Assembly: GCF_025685395.1 (NCBI RefSeq) | Contig: NZ_JAGSYA010000003.1 | Span: 62,001 to 126,000 of the forward strand | Origin: Terriglobus tenax | GTDB lineage: Bacteria; Acidobacteriota; Terriglobia; Terriglobales; Acidobacteriaceae | DNA: 64,000 nucleotides | Reading direction: 5' to 3' | Part shown: positions 1-6,029 of the stretch, one piece after another | Numbering within the stretch: the stretch's first letter is position 1 | Layout of the letters: the number at the start of each line of letters is the position of its first letter | Translations under genes and position numbers: made by a program | Notes under the pieces: model-generated | Told to the model about the DNA's origin: nothing | The model's database searches: none | The model's input: only the letters and a program-made list of their open reading frames with translations

Positions 1-724
1 CATAGCGACGCTTTCCGATCGCGGCACGGCTGGTTGCAAAGGGATCGCGCGCATTGAACAGCGTGTCGGAGTCGGTCAGGAACAGTGAGCCATGAAACTT
101 GTCCTGCCCCGGCCGCGTGATGATCTCGATGCGTCCACCTTCATACGGAGGGCGTTCGTACTCGGCAGAGAACAGGTCGGGATTCACCCGCACAAACGCA
201 ATGGATGACTTCGGCGGCATGCGGCTGCCGTTTTGAAATCCGTCGACCGTGATAGTGGCCGCACCCGGCGCCCCTCCGGAGACCGCCGCCATGGCCTGCA
301 ACTGTCGCTGCAGATCGTCAGGATCGTCAGCCATCTGGGCCAGGTCCTGGCGATTGAGTGTGCGCGATCCCGCCGCCTCGCCCGCGCTGGTGTCGAGCCC
401 ACTACCGTCCAGCACGGCGTCGACCGCTGTGGTCACCGTCTCCGGCTTCAGCGTGATGTTGAACGTAGTGGCGCCATTCAGTGGCAGCGTCTCTGGCGCA
501 AAACTAATGGCCTCGACCAGTAGCGTATGTCTGCCGCTAAGGCAGCCCAGCGAGAAGCGGCCCTGCTTATCGGTGACGATGGCTGGCCGGGTGTCCACCG
601 TTACGGTGGCATCCGCGATCACCGCGCCCGTCGCATCATGCACCATGCCCGTAACGGGCGTGCACTGCTGGGCTGCGAGCGTTCCGGCGAAGAGTGTGGT
701 GAGTACGAGTGTCTTCAGGTGCAT
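1..724 (-). CDS. TonB-dependent receptor with N-terminal carboxypeptidase-regulatory domain (5' part, runs off left edge)
   Basis: Reading the minus strand from the ATG at 722-724 gives an open frame of about 241 codons that continues past the left edge. Residues 1-18 are a signal peptide ending in LAAQQ. Residues about 20-95 match a carboxypeptidase-regulatory-like beta-sandwich (VTGMVHDATGAVIADATV, then DKQGRFSL). Residues about 120-190 look like a TonB plug: a DLQRQLQAM segment followed by ITVDGFQNG and a conserved FVRVNPDLFSAEY stretch. Such Oar-like outer-membrane receptors are abundant in Acidobacteria; the ligand cannot be inferred. An AAGGAG Shine-Dalgarno lies 9 bases before the ATG. 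The gene is divergent from the ABC/two-component operon and shares with it the symmetric region centred at 816. The barrel domain is outside the window. Confidence 0.85.
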   Translation of the reverse strand, partial: MHLKTLVLTTLFAGTLAAQQCTPVTGMVHDATGAVIADATVTVDTRPAIVTDKQGRFSLGCLSGRHTLLVEAISFAPETLPLNGATTFNITLKPETVTTAVDAVLDGSGLDTSAGEAAGSRTLNRQDLAQMADDPDDLQRQLQAMAAVSGGAPGAATITVDGFQNGSRMPPKSSIAFVRVNPDLFSAEYERPPYEGGRIEIITRPGQDKFHGSLFLTDSDTLFNARDPFATSRAAIGKRRY

Positions 725-766
725 CGCTGGTTTCTCCTTGACGAGTTCAAGACTCAGGGAAGCCGC

Positions 767-865
767 GCCTGCAAAACAGTGTGAGATGTCAGCTTTTGGG
801 CATGACATTTGTCAGTGTGACAAATGTCACCTGTTGAAGATGACATCCGGCACTGTTTCGCAGGC
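767..865. promoter_or_regulatory. 99-bp concentric imperfect palindrome (candidate shared operator)
   Basis: Three nested inverted-repeat pairs share one centre at base 816. Inner arms TGACATTTGTCA (803-814) and TGACAAATGTCA (818-829) are a perfect 12-bp pair around GTG, and each arm is itself nearly palindromic. Middle arms are GATGTCA (785-791) and TGACATC (841-847). Outer arms, 767-781 and 851-865, match at 14 of 15 positions (CACTGTTTYGCAGGC read outward). The centre is about 92 bases from the receptor start and 90 from the ABC ATPase start. The TGACA/TGTCA half-sites suggest a dimeric regulator; the NarL/FixJ protein of the same operon is the obvious candidate, by inference only. Confidence 0.7.
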
Positions 866-890
866 AGCCCCGGGGCGATGCTGAGGATGC

Positions 891-898
891 AAAGGAGG
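891..898 (+). promoter_or_regulatory. Strong Shine-Dalgarno deciding the ABC ATPase start
   Basis: AAAGGAGG lies 7 bases before the ATG at 906. The in-frame GTG at 900 would be only one base away, so 906 is the better start. Confidence 0.7.
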
Positions 899-905
899 TG
901 TGGCG

Positions 906-1832
906 ATGGTGGCGGTGGACGAAATGGAACCGGTAACAACACCGGCGATGGCAGAGGTGGCCCATCTGTGCGGTGTCACCCGGCGGTATGGCGCACATAC
1001 GGCGGTGGACGATGTCTCGCTCACGCTGCGCGCGGGTGAGGTGGTTGCGCTGCTTGGCCCCAACGGCGCCGGGAAAACAACGGCAATCAAGCTGCTGCTC
1101 GGTTTGCTCGGTCCGGATGCCGGCGAGGTGCGCATCTTCGGCGGCAACCCGCGCGAGACCGCAACCCGCACCCGCATCGGAGCCATGCTGCAGGTGGCGC
1201 GCGTGCCGGAGACCTTGAAGGTCAAGGAGTACGTTGACCTGTTCCGCAGCTACTATCCCGCACCGCTCAGCGTGCAGCACATCGTGCGCGTCGCAGGCCT
1301 GGCAGGCATTGAGAACCGCATGTTCAGCCAGCTCAGCGGAGGCCAGAAGCAGCGTCTTCTTTTTGCCCTGGCCATCTGCGGCAACCCGGACCTGATCTTC
1401 CTGGATGAACCGACGCTGGGCATGGACATCGAAACGCGGCACGCTCTGTGGCAACAGGTACGCGACCTTGCCGCACAGGGAAAGACTGTTCTGCTGACTA
1501 CGCACTACCTGGAAGAGGCCGACGGCCTGGCCAGCCGCATCGTGGTCATCAACAAGGGGAAGGTGATCGCCGAGGGTACGCCTTCGCAGATCAAGGCGAA
1601 GGTCACCGGCCGCACCATCAAGTGCGTCACCGATCTGGAGGAGAGCGTGCTGTGGACCCTGCCGGAGGTCACTTCCGTGGAAGTAAAGCTCGGTGTCACC
1701 ATCGTTCGCACGGCGCAGGCTGAAGCCGTAATACGCCAGATGCTGCGGATGGATGAATCACTGCACAGCCTCGAAATCACAAGCCCCGCGCTTGAGGATG
1801 CCTTCCTTGCGCTGACCAAAGGAGAAGAGTAA
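906..1832 (+). CDS. ABC transporter ATP-binding protein (ABC-2 exporter type)
   Basis: A 308-residue ATPase that would energise the permease encoded next. Walker A is [15 protein letters not shown] (about residues 52-60), the signature is LSGGQKQRLLFALA (about residue 145) and Walker B is LIFLDEPTLGMD, followed by the switch histidine in LLTTHYLEEADG. The last 90 residues form the extra C-terminal domain usual in CcmA/DrrA-like ATPases of drug, antibiotic or lipid exporters. It is the first gene of a tightly packed operon: its TAA overlaps the ATG of the permease by one base. The start at 906 rests on the AAAGGAGG site. The substrate is unknown; exporters with a DesK/DesR-like pair often respond to membrane-active compounds. 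Confidence 0.92.
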   Translation: MVAVDEMEPVTTPAMAEVAHLCGVTRRYGAHTAVDDVSLTLRAGEVVALLGPNGAGKTTAIKLLLGLLGPDAGEVRIFGGNPRETATRTRIGAMLQVARVPETLKVKEYVDLFRSYYPAPLSVQHIVRVAGLAGIENRMFSQLSGGQKQRLLFALAICGNPDLIFLDEPTLGMDIETRHALWQQVRDLAAQGKTVLLTTHYLEEADGLASRIVVINKGKVIAEGTPSQIKAKVTGRTIKCVTDLEESVLWTLPEVTSVEVKLGVTIVRTAQAEAVIRQMLRMDESLHSLEITSPALEDAFLALTKGEE

Positions 1833-2605
1833 TGGCAACCATGACCGTAGCTCCCCGCCTCCCGCTGTTCCGCAAAGAGGCAAAGTATGAGTTTCTTCGC
1901 CTGCTGCGCGCCCGTACCTTTACCCTGGCAACCATCGGCTTTCCGCTGATGTTCTACCTGCTCTTCGGTGTGGTGAACAGCCGCGCCGGGCAGGAGAATC
2001 TTTCCGCCAGCAAGTATCTGATGGCTACCTACGCTATCTTCGGGCTGGTGGGCTCGTCGCTGTTCGGTATCAGCATTACGTTGGCCAGCGAGCGCACGCT
2101 GGGCTGGCTGGAGCTGAAGCAGGCCAGCCCGATGCCCGCCTCCGCCTACCTGGTGGCCAAGCTGCTGACCGCCTTTGCCTTCGCCATGATCATCTTTGGC
2201 CTTCTGCTGACCATCGGCCTGACAATGGGACATGTAACCATCAGCGTCCTTGAGATCCGCAACCTTGCGCTGACCATCTTCGGAGGCGTGCTGCCCTTTG
2301 CCTCCATGGGGCTGATGCTGGCCATGGTGGTGCCGCCGCAGGCTGCTCCCGGCATCATCAACCTGATCTACCTGCCCATGAGCTTCTGCTCCGGCCTGTG
2401 GATGCCCATGACTATGCTGCCCCATTGGCTGCAGACCATCGCTCCGCTGTGGCCCACGTATCACCTTGCGCAGCTTGCCATTCACGGCATCGGTTTCCCC
2501 ATGCGGGGCACCGTCGCCGGACACATTCTGGCTCTGGCAGGGTTCACCGTGCTGATGCTCACGCTCGCAATCCTGCTCTTCCGCCGTAATGCGAGCCGCG
2601 CATGA
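1832..2605 (+). CDS. ABC-2 type permease
   Basis: A 257-residue integral membrane protein with about six hydrophobic segments, spread from residue 25 to the C-terminus. They include FTLATIGFPLMFYLLFGVV near the N-terminus, a glycine-rich IFGLVGSSLFGISI segment and a PGIINLIYLPMSFCSGLWMP segment typical of ABC-2 membrane domains (DrrB/NodJ-like). It should form the channel with the preceding ATPase in the inner membrane. Translation is probably coupled on both sides: TAATG with the ATPase upstream and ATGA with a possible kinase start downstream. The family covers drug, polysaccharide and lipid exporters, and nothing in the sequence selects among them. Confidence 0.9.
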   Translation: MATMTVAPRLPLFRKEAKYEFLRLLRARTFTLATIGFPLMFYLLFGVVNSRAGQENLSASKYLMATYAIFGLVGSSLFGISITLASERTLGWLELKQASPMPASAYLVAKLLTAFAFAMIIFGLLLTIGLTMGHVTISVLEIRNLALTIFGGVLPFASMGLMLAMVVPPQAAPGIINLIYLPMSFCSGLWMPMTMLPHWLQTIAPLWPTYHLAQLAIHGIGFPMRGTVAGHILALAGFTVLMLTLAILLFRRNASRA

Positions 2606-2631
2606 ATTACACTCGCGGGCAGGAGAGGTTG

Positions 2632-3732
2632 ATGGAGACGTGTGACACGATCACGGAAGCTGCCCCGCCGCAGAAGCCGCGGCGGATGCTCCGCTACATG
2701 TCGCTGCTCTACACCGCCTTCTGCCTGATTCAGCCGATTCTCGACAACACGCGCCGCGAGTGGATCTTGCTCGCGATTGCATACAGCATCTTTCTGGCGT
2801 CGTACATCGCTGCCACGGAACTGCGTCCCGGGAAGCTCCGCGCGCTCAGCTTCGTGGTGCTCTTTGCAATCGGCTATGTGTATGTGCCATTCAATAACAG
2901 CGCCTCTGGCCTGTACGTTTATCCAACGGCGATCCTGCCGTTTACGGTCCGGTCGCCTCGGCATGTCATCTATGCGCTGTGTGCGCATTGTGCAGCCATC
3001 GTCGTTAGCATGAAGCTTCTTGGCGCGCAGCCCTGGTCGGTTGGCCTGGGACTCTTCCTCACCGTCGTCGTTTGCCTCAGCAACCTGTACTATGCGGCGC
3101 AGCAGAAGAGCGATGCCAAGCTGCGGATGGCGCATGAGGAGATTGAACACCTGGCCACGGTGGCCGAACGCGAACGCATTGCACGCGACCTGCATGACCT
3201 TCTGGGCCACACGCTCACCGTCATTGCGTTGAAAAGTGAGCTCGCGGGCAAGTTGATTGCGCAGAACCCCGACGCTGCTGCGGCGGAGATTGCGGAGATC
3301 CAGCAGACCTCGCGTCACGCGCTGGCCGAGGTGAGGGAAGCCGTGCTGGGCTACCGCTCCCAGGGGCTGAACGCCGAGGTAGATCGTGCTCGCAAGACGC
3401 TGGCGACGGCCAGCATCAAGCTGGTGTGTGACGGCCTGCCCAACGAGCTTCCTATCGCGGAGGAGACGGTTCTCTGCCTTGCCATACGCGAAAGCATGAC
3501 CAACATCATGCGTCACTCCGGCGCCACCGAGGTCTGGATGCGTTTCCGCTTTCACGATGGTCGCCTGAACATGACCGTGGAAGACAATGGCAAGGGCGGC
3601 GTTAAGGAAGAGGGCTTCGGTCTGCGCGGCATGCGTGAACGCATTGAAGCGCTGGGCGGGCGGCTCTCCATCCAGTCGGAAGCAGGAACGCGGCTGACCA
3701 TTGACCTGCCGAAGGGTGCCGCAACCGCATGA
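2632..3732 (+). CDS. Sensor histidine kinase, NarL-family (HisKA_3, DesK-like)
   Basis: A membrane kinase of 366 residues. Five or six hydrophobic segments fill the first 150 residues with no large periplasmic loop, as in DesK-type sensors that read the membrane itself. The dimerisation box ERERIARDLHDLLGHTLTV has the phosphorylated His near residue 188. The ATPase domain has an N box in ESMTNIMRHSGA, a G1 box VEDNGKGG and a G2 box GFGLRGMRERIEALGG. I chose the ATG at 2632 because AGGAGAGG (2621-2628) precedes it; an ATG at 2602 overlaps the permease stop (ATGA) but lacks such a site. Its stop overlaps the regulator start by 4 bases, so kinase and regulator are probably a cognate pair. Confidence 0.9.
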   Translation: METCDTITEAAPPQKPRRMLRYMSLLYTAFCLIQPILDNTRREWILLAIAYSIFLASYIAATELRPGKLRALSFVVLFAIGYVYVPFNNSASGLYVYPTAILPFTVRSPRHVIYALCAHCAAIVVSMKLLGAQPWSVGLGLFLTVVVCLSNLYYAAQQKSDAKLRMAHEEIEHLATVAERERIARDLHDLLGHTLTVIALKSELAGKLIAQNPDAAAAEIAEIQQTSRHALAEVREAVLGYRSQGLNAEVDRARKTLATASIKLVCDGLPNELPIAEETVLCLAIRESMTNIMRHSGATEVWMRFRFHDGRLNMTVEDNGKGGVKEEGFGLRGMRERIEALGGRLSIQSEAGTRLTIDLPKGAATA

Positions 3733-4340
3733 CGAAGATTGAAGTACTCCTGGCCGAAGACCAGGGCATGGTGCTGGGCGCTCTGGCCGCACTACTGAAT
3801 ACAGAGCCGGACATCACCGTGGTGGGCACGGCAAGCAATGGCAGCCTCGCCCTGGAGGCAATTGCGAAGAAGCCGCCGCAGGTGCTGGTCACCGACATCG
3901 AGATGCCGCAGATGACCGGCCTGGAACTGGCCGCCGCCGTGAAGGAACGCTTCCCGAAGACACGCATCGTCATCCTGACCACCTTCGCGCGCCCCGGCTA
4001 CCTGCGCCGCGCTCTCGATGCAGGGGCGCAGGGATACCTGCTGAAAGATCGTCCCGCATCGGAACTGGCCGAGGCCATTCGCCGCGTCCATCGCGGGCTG
4101 CGCGTTGTAGACCCCGATCTCGCCGCCGAAGCATGGACCGCGGACCCGGACCCGTTGACCGATCGCGAACGCCAGATCCTGCAGCGCGCCGGCGATGGCA
4201 TGTCCACAGCCGAGGTTGCGCGCGAGCTTGGCCTCAGCGAAGGCACCGTGCGCAACTACCTGTCCGAATCCATCGCGAAACTCGGCGTCTCCAACCGCAT
4301 CGAAGCCGCACGCCTGGCACGCTCCAAGGGCTGGCTGTAA
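3729..4340 (+). CDS. Response regulator, NarL/FixJ family
   Basis: A 203-residue two-domain regulator. The receiver domain has the acidic pair E10/D11, the phospho-acceptor D56 in VLVTDIEMP and the conserved Lys in GYLLKD. The C-terminal LuxR-type helix-turn-helix (about 140-203) starts at LTDRERQIL and contains AEVARELGLSEGTVRNYLS. It is the last gene of the ABC/kinase operon, overlapping the kinase by 4 bases (ATGA). LuxR-type domains bind inverted repeats as dimers, so the nested palindrome at 767-865 is a reasonable target and would give autoregulation plus control of the divergent receptor. That link is inferred. Confidence 0.92.
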   Translation: MTKIEVLLAEDQGMVLGALAALLNTEPDITVVGTASNGSLALEAIAKKPPQVLVTDIEMPQMTGLELAAAVKERFPKTRIVILTTFARPGYLRRALDAGAQGYLLKDRPASELAEAIRRVHRGLRVVDPDLAAEAWTADPDPLTDRERQILQRAGDGMSTAEVARELGLSEGTVRNYLSESIAKLGVSNRIEAARLARSKGWL

Positions 4341-4475
4341 AAGCAGTTCTTAGTTGTGAGTTGGGCTTGCGCACGCAACCGGCTTTTCTTGTCCTTTGTC
4401 ATTGTCATCCTGCAAGGATCCGCTTCTCTTCCCAACCTATGATTTTCTTTCCACTTAACCGATACACTTTTCCCC
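4341..4475. repeat. Intergenic repeat block: GTTGTGAGTTG micro-repeat plus GTCATCCTGCAAGGATC element
   Basis: Directly after the regulator stop lies a degenerate AGTTCTTAGTTGTGAGTTG run (4344-4366). It is followed at 4383-4430 by a C/T-rich element reading CTTGTCCTTTGTCATTG, then TCCTGCAAGGATCCGCTTCT. Related copies of both occur elsewhere in the window. No gene is visible here. Confidence 0.6.
4463..4468 (+). promoter_or_regulatory. Candidate leaderless promoter (-10 TACACT) for the glycoside hydrolase-like gene
   Basis: TACACT ends 7 bases before the ATG at 4476 and no Shine-Dalgarno is present, so transcription may start at or next to the start codon. Confidence 0.5.
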
Positions 4476-6029
4476 ATGAACCGCAGAGAGATGCTGAAGT
4501 CCGGCGGCGCGCTTTTGGTGGCCGGTGTGTCGACAAACAGTATGCAGGCGGCTGCCCCCGCTGCAAAAAACAGTGCAAAGGTTGAGCGCTGGGACGTCTT
4601 TGAGATCACGTTGAACGGCCCGAAGGAAGGCAATCCCTTCCTCGATGTCTGGGTCAGGGCCAGCTTCCGCAAGGGCGGCCGCGAGATGCTCATCGACGGC
4701 TTCTACGACGGTGACGGCGTCTACAAGGTGCGCTTCATGCCGGACTCAACCGGTGCCTGGAGCTACACCACTGACAGCAACAGCACCGCGCTCAAGGGCA
4801 GGACCGGCAGCTTCGAGGTGACGCCCGCAACGGCCGGCAACCACGGTCCGGTCGGCGTACGCGACACCTTCCACTTCGGCTACGCGGACGGCACTCCCTA
4901 CTACCCCTTCGGCACCACCTGCTACGCGTGGGTGCACCAGACGGAACAGCTTGAGCAGGAGACGTTGGCCGCGCTGAAGACCGGACCCTTCAACAAGATG
5001 CGCATGTGCATCTTCCCCAAGTGGTACCAGTACAACCACGGTGTTCCTCCGCGTTTTCCGTTCCCGCGCACGGGAGAGACCAACGACTACTCCCGCTTCA
5101 ATCCGGAGTTCTTCCAGCACATTGAGAAGCGCATCCTCGACCTCCGCGCCCTGAACATTGAAGCTGACCTGATCCTCTTTCACCCCTATGACCACTGGGG
5201 TTTTCAGGAGATGCCTGCCGAGGTCGACGACCGTTATCTGAAGTATGTGATCGCGCGCTTCGGAGCCTACCGCAACGTCTGGTGGTCGCTGGCCAACGAA
5301 TTTGACCTGATGAAGAAGAAGAACTCCGGCGACTGGGACCGTTATGCGGAGATCGTTACAGAGAACGATCCCTATGGCCACCTGCGCTCCATTCACTACA
5401 GCAAGGCTCCGTATGACTATGCACGTGTGTGGTGCACCCACGCCTGCGTGCAGGACTACGCCTTCGACAAGGCCGCAAGCTGGCGCGCCGCCTGGCGCAA
5501 GCCCGTCATTTTTGATGAGTGCATGTACGAGGGCAACATCAACTCGCGCTGGGGCAATCTGTCCGGCGAAGAGATGACGCGCCGCTTCTGGCTCTGCGTG
5601 GTTGCGGGCGTCTACGCAGGCCATGGTGAGACCTACGTCACCGAAAACGACATCGAGAATGACAAGGCCATTCTCTGGTGGTCGCACGGTGGCTCGCTGA
5701 AGGGCACCAGCCCCGGGCGCATCGGCTTCCTGCGCAAGCTCGTTGAGGATACGGCAGCGGCAGGCGGCGGACAGATCGGCTTCACGCAGATTGAGCCGCC
5801 CTACTATCCCAGCGCGAAGCGCAGCCAGGACGAGGCCTTCCTCTTCTACCTCGACTTCCACCAGGCGCTCTACTACGACTTCCTTCTGCCGGAGAAGGGC
5901 AAATACAAGGCGGACCTGATCGATCCGTGGGCGATGACCGTGACGCCTGTCACCGGAGAGTTCAGTGGAAAGAGCCGCGTCAAGCTGACAGGCAAACCCT
6001 ACATGGCCGTGCGCTTTACCCGCATCTAG
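4476..6029 (+). CDS. Secreted glycoside hydrolase-like protein (DUF5060 / DUF4038 / DUF5605 architecture)
   Basis: A 517-residue protein with a twin-arginine-like signal (NRREMLKSGGALL) and a cleavage region near MQAAAPA. Residues about 40-125 form a DUF5060-like beta domain (VERWDVFEITLNGP through the YTTDSNST region). Residues about 135-430 form a TIM-barrel domain of the DUF4038 kind (YPFGTTCYAWVHQT). Likely catalytic acids are in SLANEFD (near 274) and VIFDECMYEG (near 348), the positions expected for a retaining clan-A hydrolase. The C-terminal 80 residues resemble the accessory beta domain DUF5605. Relatives act on plant or microbial polysaccharides; the exact linkage cannot be read. 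Its export suggests polysaccharide scavenging in soil. It stands alone, flanked by repeat blocks. Confidence 0.8.
   Translation: MNRREMLKSGGALLVAGVSTNSMQAAAPAAKNSAKVERWDVFEITLNGPKEGNPFLDVWVRASFRKGGREMLIDGFYDGDGVYKVRFMPDSTGAWSYTTDSNSTALKGRTGSFEVTPATAGNHGPVGVRDTFHFGYADGTPYYPFGTTCYAWVHQTEQLEQETLAALKTGPFNKMRMCIFPKWYQYNHGVPPRFPFPRTGETNDYSRFNPEFFQHIEKRILDLRALNIEADLILFHPYDHWGFQEMPAEVDDRYLKYVIARFGAYRNVWWSLANEFDLMKKKNSGDWDRYAEIVTENDPYGHLRSIHYSKAPYDYARVWCTHACVQDYAFDKAASWRAAWRKPVIFDECMYEGNINSRWGNLSGEEMTRRFWLCVVAGVYAGHGETYVTENDIENDKAILWWSHGGSLKGTSPGRIGFLRKLVEDTAAAGGGQIGFTQIEPPYYPSAKRSQDEAFLFYLDFHQALYYDFLLPEKGKYKADLIDPWAMTVTPVTGEFSGKSRVKLTGKPYMAVRFTRI

Follow-up and report, generated by a model that had tools for sequence, protein, structure and literature searches.

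Organization of the locus

The window, that is, the whole stretch of 64,000 nucleotides analyzed here, is part of a 4.36-Mb genome (G000:C3:62001-126000). Positions 1-724 carry, on the reverse strand, the 5' part of a gene for an outer-membrane receptor of 880 aa with domain matches to CarboxypepD_reg and the OMP_b-brl_4 barrel; the remainder of the gene lies beyond the window. Four genes are read in the opposite direction, on the forward strand: an ABC exporter ATPase (906-1832), whose best NCBIfam match is DrrA at a score below the cut-off, an ABC-2 permease (1832-2605; ORF list and domain match), a membrane histidine kinase with a HisKA_3 domain (2602-3732), and a response regulator with a receiver and a GerE/LuxR-type DNA-binding domain (3729-4340). 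The hydropathy profile of the kinase contains three to four clear membrane stretches within residues 53-166. The permease is 83% identical to that of Terriglobus albidus DSM 26559 (L091), the nearest named species, in which the locus is arranged in the same way, and 85% identical to those of two other acidobacterial assemblies. These matches place the genome in the Acidobacteriaceae, probably in Terriglobus. The mechanical ORF list gives GTG 900 as the start of the ATPase, while the ribosome-binding-like sequence AAAGGAGG at 891-898 fits ATG 906.

The region between the receptor and the ATPase contains three nested inverted repeats with one exact centre at base 816, their arms lying where the original prediction had placed them. 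The inner arms (803-814 and 818-829) pair at 12 of 12 positions, the middle arms (785-791 and 841-847) at 7 of 7, and the outer arms (767-781 and 851-865) at 14 of 15. Three further pairs, 793-795 with 837-839 at a distance of 21-23 from the centre, are added here. The predicted distances of 92 and 90 bases from base 816 to the start codons also agree with ATG 724 of the receptor and ATG 906 of the ATPase. Around base 816, 36 of 49 pairs are complementary, the maximum over all odd and even centres of the 64-kb window, the runner-up reaching 28. The binomial probability of this count at centre 816 is 1.5e-12, or about 2e-7 after multiplication by 128,000 centres.

Structure of the predicted promoter module

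The feature consists of two copies of a directional module, TGACAnnTGTCA-N11-TGACR-N5-CACT followed by a -10-like element, placed back to back with 3 bp between them. In the leftward module, which faces the receptor on the reverse strand, the predicted primary operator is the 12-bp palindrome TGACAAATGTCA at 803-814 (the forward strand at 802-814 reads ATGACATTTGTCA). It is followed after 11 bp by a third, direct half-site TGACA (787-791), by CACT in about the -35 region (778-781), and by the predicted -10 element GAGTCT (750-755), with a predicted start near 743. The rightward module, on the forward strand, faces the exporter/two-component operon and has its predicted primary operator TGACAAATGTCA at 818-829, the direct half-site TGACA, again 11 bp past the palindrome, at 841-845, CACT at 851-854, about the -35 region, and the predicted -10 element GATGCT at 877-882, with a predicted start near 889. 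The gap GTG (815-817) between the two primary operators includes the symmetry centre. The predicted leaders are 17 nt (from 889) and 19 nt (from 743) long and contain the ribosome-binding-like sequences AAAGGAGG and AAGGAG, respectively. Relative to the predicted start, the palindrome lies at about -71 to -60. The footprint of DesR, reportedly about -77 to -28 in work of Cybulski et al. from 2004, would fit the module.

A logo of 56 non-redundant regulon modules places TGACR at positions 24-28, CACT at 34-37 (each base in 48-54 of the modules) and the -10-like element [GC]A[TA][GT][CA]T at 60-65, where A61 and T65 are each present in 50 of 56. The base before the palindrome (-1) is A in 37 of the 56 modules, and position +13 is T or C in 52. 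The search pattern fixed TGACRnnYGTCA and TGAY, with CACT and the -10 element outside it. Since the downstream dimer site is degenerate in its second half, a lone half-site plus a promoter element is equally compatible with the data. Two other assignments were rejected. The third half-site is not a sigma-70 -35 box, because the conserved -10 is 36 bases away and CACT lies nearer to the expected place. The sequence GGCAC..GC of the outer arms, considered by eye as a sigma-54-type promoter, has a spacing from GG to GC one base short of the sigma-54 consensus. Instead of being DNA sites, the repeats might act in RNA as a hairpin, attenuator or terminator, since long inverted repeats can form hairpins once transcribed; this is very improbable, because on either side the predicted start falls beyond the arms, positions 1-5000 gave no Rfam match at gathering score, and conservation falls on the half-sites and promoter elements, with only 0.05-0.33 bit in the spacer (positions 14-23).

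The nested repeats share a single centre because a module of fixed spacing is laid back to back twice. As a control, 1175 back-to-back pairs were formed from 49 regulon modules sharing less than 75% identity, with the pair of the window excluded; these match at 26.3 ± 3.0 of 49 positions, and 5 of the 1175 reach 36. About 26 of the 36 symmetric matches thus follow from the double use of one module. Natural pairs gave 36 matches in the window, 29-32 in four sister species and 23-28 in the other nine pairs with a 3-bp gap. The excess lies mainly outermost: at module positions 38-49, 10 of 12 match in the window, compared with 5-7 in each of the four sister genomes and on average 3.4 (maximum 9) in the control pairs. 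It includes the outer part of the left outer arm (767-777, partner 855-865), where the symmetry exceeds the module consensus and is strongest in the window's genome. This outer-arm excess is the sole part of the symmetry that the module leaves unexplained, and it points to local homogenization or a younger inverted duplication in the lineage of the window. Gene conversion between the two promoters is possible at 767-777/855-865. The same excess beyond the module would suit a chance or mobile-element palindrome with no regulatory role, but this explanation is hardly credible: it is contradicted by conservation, both in the sister species and at greater distance, and the symmetry is the best in the window, with no second copy found in the genome when up to 3 mismatches are allowed.

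Conservation in orthologous operons

Orthologues of the exporter operon were collected by a protein search of 61 genomes; a permease of at least 45% identity was found in 17, the window's included, and one operon (G015) is cut by a contig end, leaving 16 evaluable. The 12-mer TGACxnnxGTCA-N11-TGA is present upstream of 14 of these 16 (window included), so that the half-sites stood up to the check proposed with the original prediction, their retention upstream of orthologous operons. This protein-found set is the unbiased support for the direct half-site, since the DNA pattern itself demands TGAY at N11. Among the 14 operons, eight have a single module toward the ATPase, five a mirrored pair (window, G002, G009, G013 and G016) and one two separate copies (G007). 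The two exporter operons without the module (G004 and G011) had no kinase match at E ≤ 1e-20 among the 6 candidates scored in each; a regulator orthologue was absent from both at E ≤ 1e-45 and from G004 also at E ≤ 1e-25. The best regulator match in G011 is 34% identical, against 69-76% for the orthologues in G008, G205 and G001. In G004 and G011 (L021 and L022) the exporter is retained and its ATPase starts about a dozen bases past another gene, a natural deletion experiment.

The module is also found upstream of the kinase operon and of the receptor gene where these sit apart from the exporter. The kinase-regulator operon is separate from the exporter and faces the receptor in G005, G012, G015 and G018, with gaps between the modules of 3, 3, 224 and 23 bp. 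In G010, which is 70% complete and gave no permease match, the receptor stands opposite the kinase. Two divergent modules are separated by 233 bp in G007 and by 87 bp in G010, and G001 has a single module before the receptor alone. The single modules in relatives, and the loss of the module together with kinase and regulator, argue that the module is a unit in itself, of which the window has two in inverted orientation. A single-dimer NarL-type operator, with one palindrome for both genes, was rejected because of these lone modules; the window has two palindromes, and a direct half-site, CACT and a -10-like element go with each of them. The conservation of the module, and its lone and separated copies, instead support the earlier proposal that a promoter-operator, duplicated in inverted form, serves the receptor on one side and the exporter/two-component operon on the other. 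That proposal also had the element possibly bound by two or more dimers of the operon's own NarL-type regulator.

Among 398 family genomes, 18 contain two palindromes separated by 0-30 bp, with 0 control matches. Sixteen of these pairs are two-sided, with a gap of 3 bp in 14 (G000, G002, G005, G009, G012, G013, G016, G236, G237, G324, G344, G366, G373 and G412, representing five genera), 2 bp in G319 and 23 bp in G018; the remaining two are one-sided (G133) and tandem (G272). A receptor, kinase or ATPase was matched on 29 of the 32 sides of the two-sided pairs; the other three sides, one apiece in G237, G324 and G373, had no match to the reference set. The 3-bp gap, kept in five genera and in both receptor/kinase and receptor/exporter pairs while spacers and central dinucleotides vary, would be expected of one large symmetric operator, in which dimers cooperate across the centre in a single nucleoprotein complex that needs the exact 15-bp spacing between palindrome centres. 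Such a complex is possible but rather unlikely, because gaps of 2, 23, 87, 224 and 233 bp, shared palindromes (G113 and G292) and lone modules all occur before the same gene types. The gap may also be inherited, since the sampled kinases directly facing a receptor, except that of G010, belong to one clade.

This clade (100/100) was recovered in a midpoint-rooted tree of 41 kinases and also contains those of G001 and G292; the G010 kinase groups with that of G007. Most kinases of exporter operons stand apart from it, and the clade of the window (100/99) is placed beside it with weak support (80/60). The mirrored pair may represent an old receptor/kinase arrangement that was later entered by exporter genes.

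Distribution of the module and the kinase

The pattern TGACRNNYGTCA-N11-TGAY has 43 matches in the 61 genomes, where the reversed control has 4, and 335 in 300 family genomes, where the control has 20. In the latter, kinase and module are both present in 118 genomes and both absent from 151; 2 have the kinase only and 29 the module only (Fisher p 2e-52, a descriptive value that ignores relatedness). The kinase was counted as present at E ≤ 1e-40, a threshold set after a gap between about 1e-45 and 1e-25 had been seen; because scoring stopped at 6 candidates or fewer in many of the genomes, a kinase-negative call may in some cases be wrong. Both genomes with the kinase only do contain the palindrome, and their TGAY differs from the pattern by a single base. 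The 180 kinase-negative genomes contain 43 pattern matches against 13 for the control; some of this excess is likely due to chance or to incomplete genomes, but not all of it is explained. A regulator match at E ≤ 1e-45 was absent from 28 of the 29 kinase-negative genomes with a module, with up to 54 candidates scored in each and misses possible.

Positions were compared for 124 module places and 54 kinase places among the matches listed, all from genomes for which one or more modules are listed. Of the 54 kinases, 47 have a module on their own strand no more than 6 kb upstream, a count that is no independent test of presence since it is drawn from genomes with listed modules. The distance is 128-154 bp for 3 of these kinases and 1.9-4.5 kb, the operon form, for 44. 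For six of the seven kinases without a module, the gene starts less than 1.8 kb from the beginning of its contig; that of G314 has room upstream and no listed module.

Relation to known regulatory systems

The best match of the regulator among solved structures is DesR (4ldz), with E 4.7e-58 over residues 4-202, and GTVRNY in the DNA-binding domain is identical in the two proteins. Where the original prediction spoke of a NarL-type regulator, a DesR/YvfU type can now be named on the strength of this match and of the published motif. According to the available text of PMC11034029, the motif of DesR is [ATGACA]-N2-[TGTCAT] and that of RR11 is [ATGACATTTGTCAT]-N7-[AGTGACA]; the 12-mer of the window equals the motif given there for Bacillus DesR and pneumococcal RR11, and the authors state that predicted motifs still need biochemical assays. 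Both copies in the window contain the 12-bp inverted repeat ATGACA-N2-TGTCAT of DesR-type promoters, and the third direct half-site of such promoters is present on both sides, as TGACA at N11. As in the DesR group, the regulator is encoded inside the cluster that it would control (3729-4340).

The locus shares the 12-bp palindrome ATGACA-N2-TGTCAT with the des promoter of the Bacillus subtilis DesK/DesR system (PMC11034029, accessible part) and, as far as the excerpt of PMC7726353 goes, also the combination of an inverted and a direct repeat. The gene order of ABC ATPase, ABC permease, kinase and regulator is that of the yvfRSTU-type clusters described in the same excerpt. Unlike the des system, in which DesR drives a desaturase gene in a Gram-positive organism, the genes concerned here are an exporter/two-component operon and an outer-membrane receptor, and the modules are mirrored. 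Pneumococcal TCS11 (RR11) likewise has a palindrome and then a direct half-site, after 10 bp, and the specific target found for it in the available text was only its own operon (PMC11034029), whereas here the divergent receptor has a module copy of its own. The present module also differs from the RR11 site in its spacing of 11 bp, followed by CACT and a -10-like element at fixed distance. LnrLMN consists of one ATPase and two membrane proteins, and such a set of three transporter genes was not found here, where one ATPase and one permease precede the kinase. The LnrJK-LnrLMN system of B. subtilis, which responds to linearmycin and amphotericin, is similar in that a two-component system adjoins and controls an ABC exporter, but its kinase and regulator genes precede the transporter genes, and no binding site is named (PMC7472640, portion available).

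Proposed regulation

Taken together, the sequence comparisons make it very probable that the region holds two complete DesR-type activator sites with their promoters, inverted and with 3 bp between the primary operators, and that they activate transcription on both sides. The 12-bp palindrome of each module would seat one regulator dimer, and the direct half-site TGACR, 11 bp further on and running into CACT at the -35 region, would form a second, weaker dimer site; the -10 element at fixed distance would complete the module. A DesK-like kinase would sense one membrane signal, and the phosphorylated DesR-like regulator encoded in the rightward operon would bind both palindromes and both direct sites and activate both promoters. 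A single signal could thereby switch on the ABC exporter with its own two-component genes and, simultaneously, the outer-membrane receptor. Binding and activation by the phosphorylated regulator, the dimer stoichiometry and the start sites are inferred, and so is the idea that receptor and exporter are supplied together. The signal is presumably membrane or envelope stress, as for DesK and LnrJK in the available portion of the literature, to which the analogy is drawn.

The sites could also belong to another regulator, or the regulator could repress instead of activating. Either is compatible with the sequence, and the window's genome contains 32 regulator matches at E ≤ 0.001, the present one included. 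Both possibilities are improbable nonetheless: the presence and loss of the module track this kinase and regulator, the motif is that of the closest solved relative, described as an activator in the text available, and a palindrome some 60-71 bases upstream of the predicted start would be typical of an activator.

It is conceivable, if doubtful, that the mirrored pair works as one switch, with four dimers at a fixed 15-bp phasing co-activating the barrel receptor and the inner-membrane exporter. If so, a Gram-negative DesKR-type membrane-stress system would control a trans-envelope route of export or sensing and not the inner membrane alone. The DesR-type operator itself is already known; the variant seen here is a divergent DesR-type regulon in Acidobacteriota whose modules are mirrored and which includes an outer-membrane receptor. 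No such regulon in Acidobacteria was found in the titles and abstract beginnings of a partly covered literature, which only weakly suggests that none has been described. The DesR/YvfU operator, known from Firmicutes, is hereby tied to a regulon that occurs in more than 100 of the 300 genomes sampled from a single acidobacterial family, and the regulon gains a defined, testable DNA code. An outer-membrane receptor, impossible in the Gram-positive DesR systems, is repeatedly part of the regulon, and the purpose of the exporter in Gram-negatives thus becomes directly testable. The natural variants, with lone, shared, separated or mirrored modules, allow tests of spacing dependence in divergent activation.

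Regulon extent and further occurrences of the module

In the window's genome, no further TGACANNTGTCA-N11-TGACR-N5-CACTG was found at up to 3 mismatches, except for one self-overlapping register, so the regulon here probably comprises just the receptor and the exporter/two-component operon. Two other TGACANNTGTCA sites in the genome, at G000:C3:1061488 and G000:C4:1488470, were rejected, as neither has TGAY at N11; the former lies inside a repetitive, apparently coding stretch (by eye). The latter (L014) is a lone TGACATTTGTCA before an MFS-like gene (by eye), without a direct half-site. Three looser 12-mers in the window (5941, 52248 and 58043) were likewise set aside, none having TGAY at N11 on the forward strand.

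Of the 115 distinct modules, 34 precede an ATPase, 16 a receptor, 10 a kinase and 6 an FtsX-type permease (L101, L204, L207, L208, L209 and L211), while 49 were assigned to none of these four classes. Of the last group 25 were inspected, and several are followed by genes for HlyD-like adaptors, alpha/beta hydrolases or amidohydrolases (identified by eye); further ones are probably due to chance. Three gammaproteobacterial records (L093-L095) have TGACAAATGTCA-N11-TGACACTT before the exporter, with regulators 56-57% identical. A more compact bidirectional form, in which a single palindrome has N11-TGAY to its left and right, occurs at G113:C1:3143092-3143133 and G292:C4:110909-110950 (L178 and L179), between a kinase (a weak match in G113) and a divergent gene for a small membrane protein. 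Three tandem TGACATTTGTCA palindromes followed by a single N11-TGAC are present at G272:C66:4640-4707 (L240). By eye, the module precedes two small, probably secreted proteins at L206 and HlyD-like adaptors at L135, L138, L197 and L213 (genus g79). At L193, L214, L215 and L216 it stands before an alpha/beta hydrolase gene followed by a deoxyhypusine-synthase-like gene (again by eye), an unexpected pairing.
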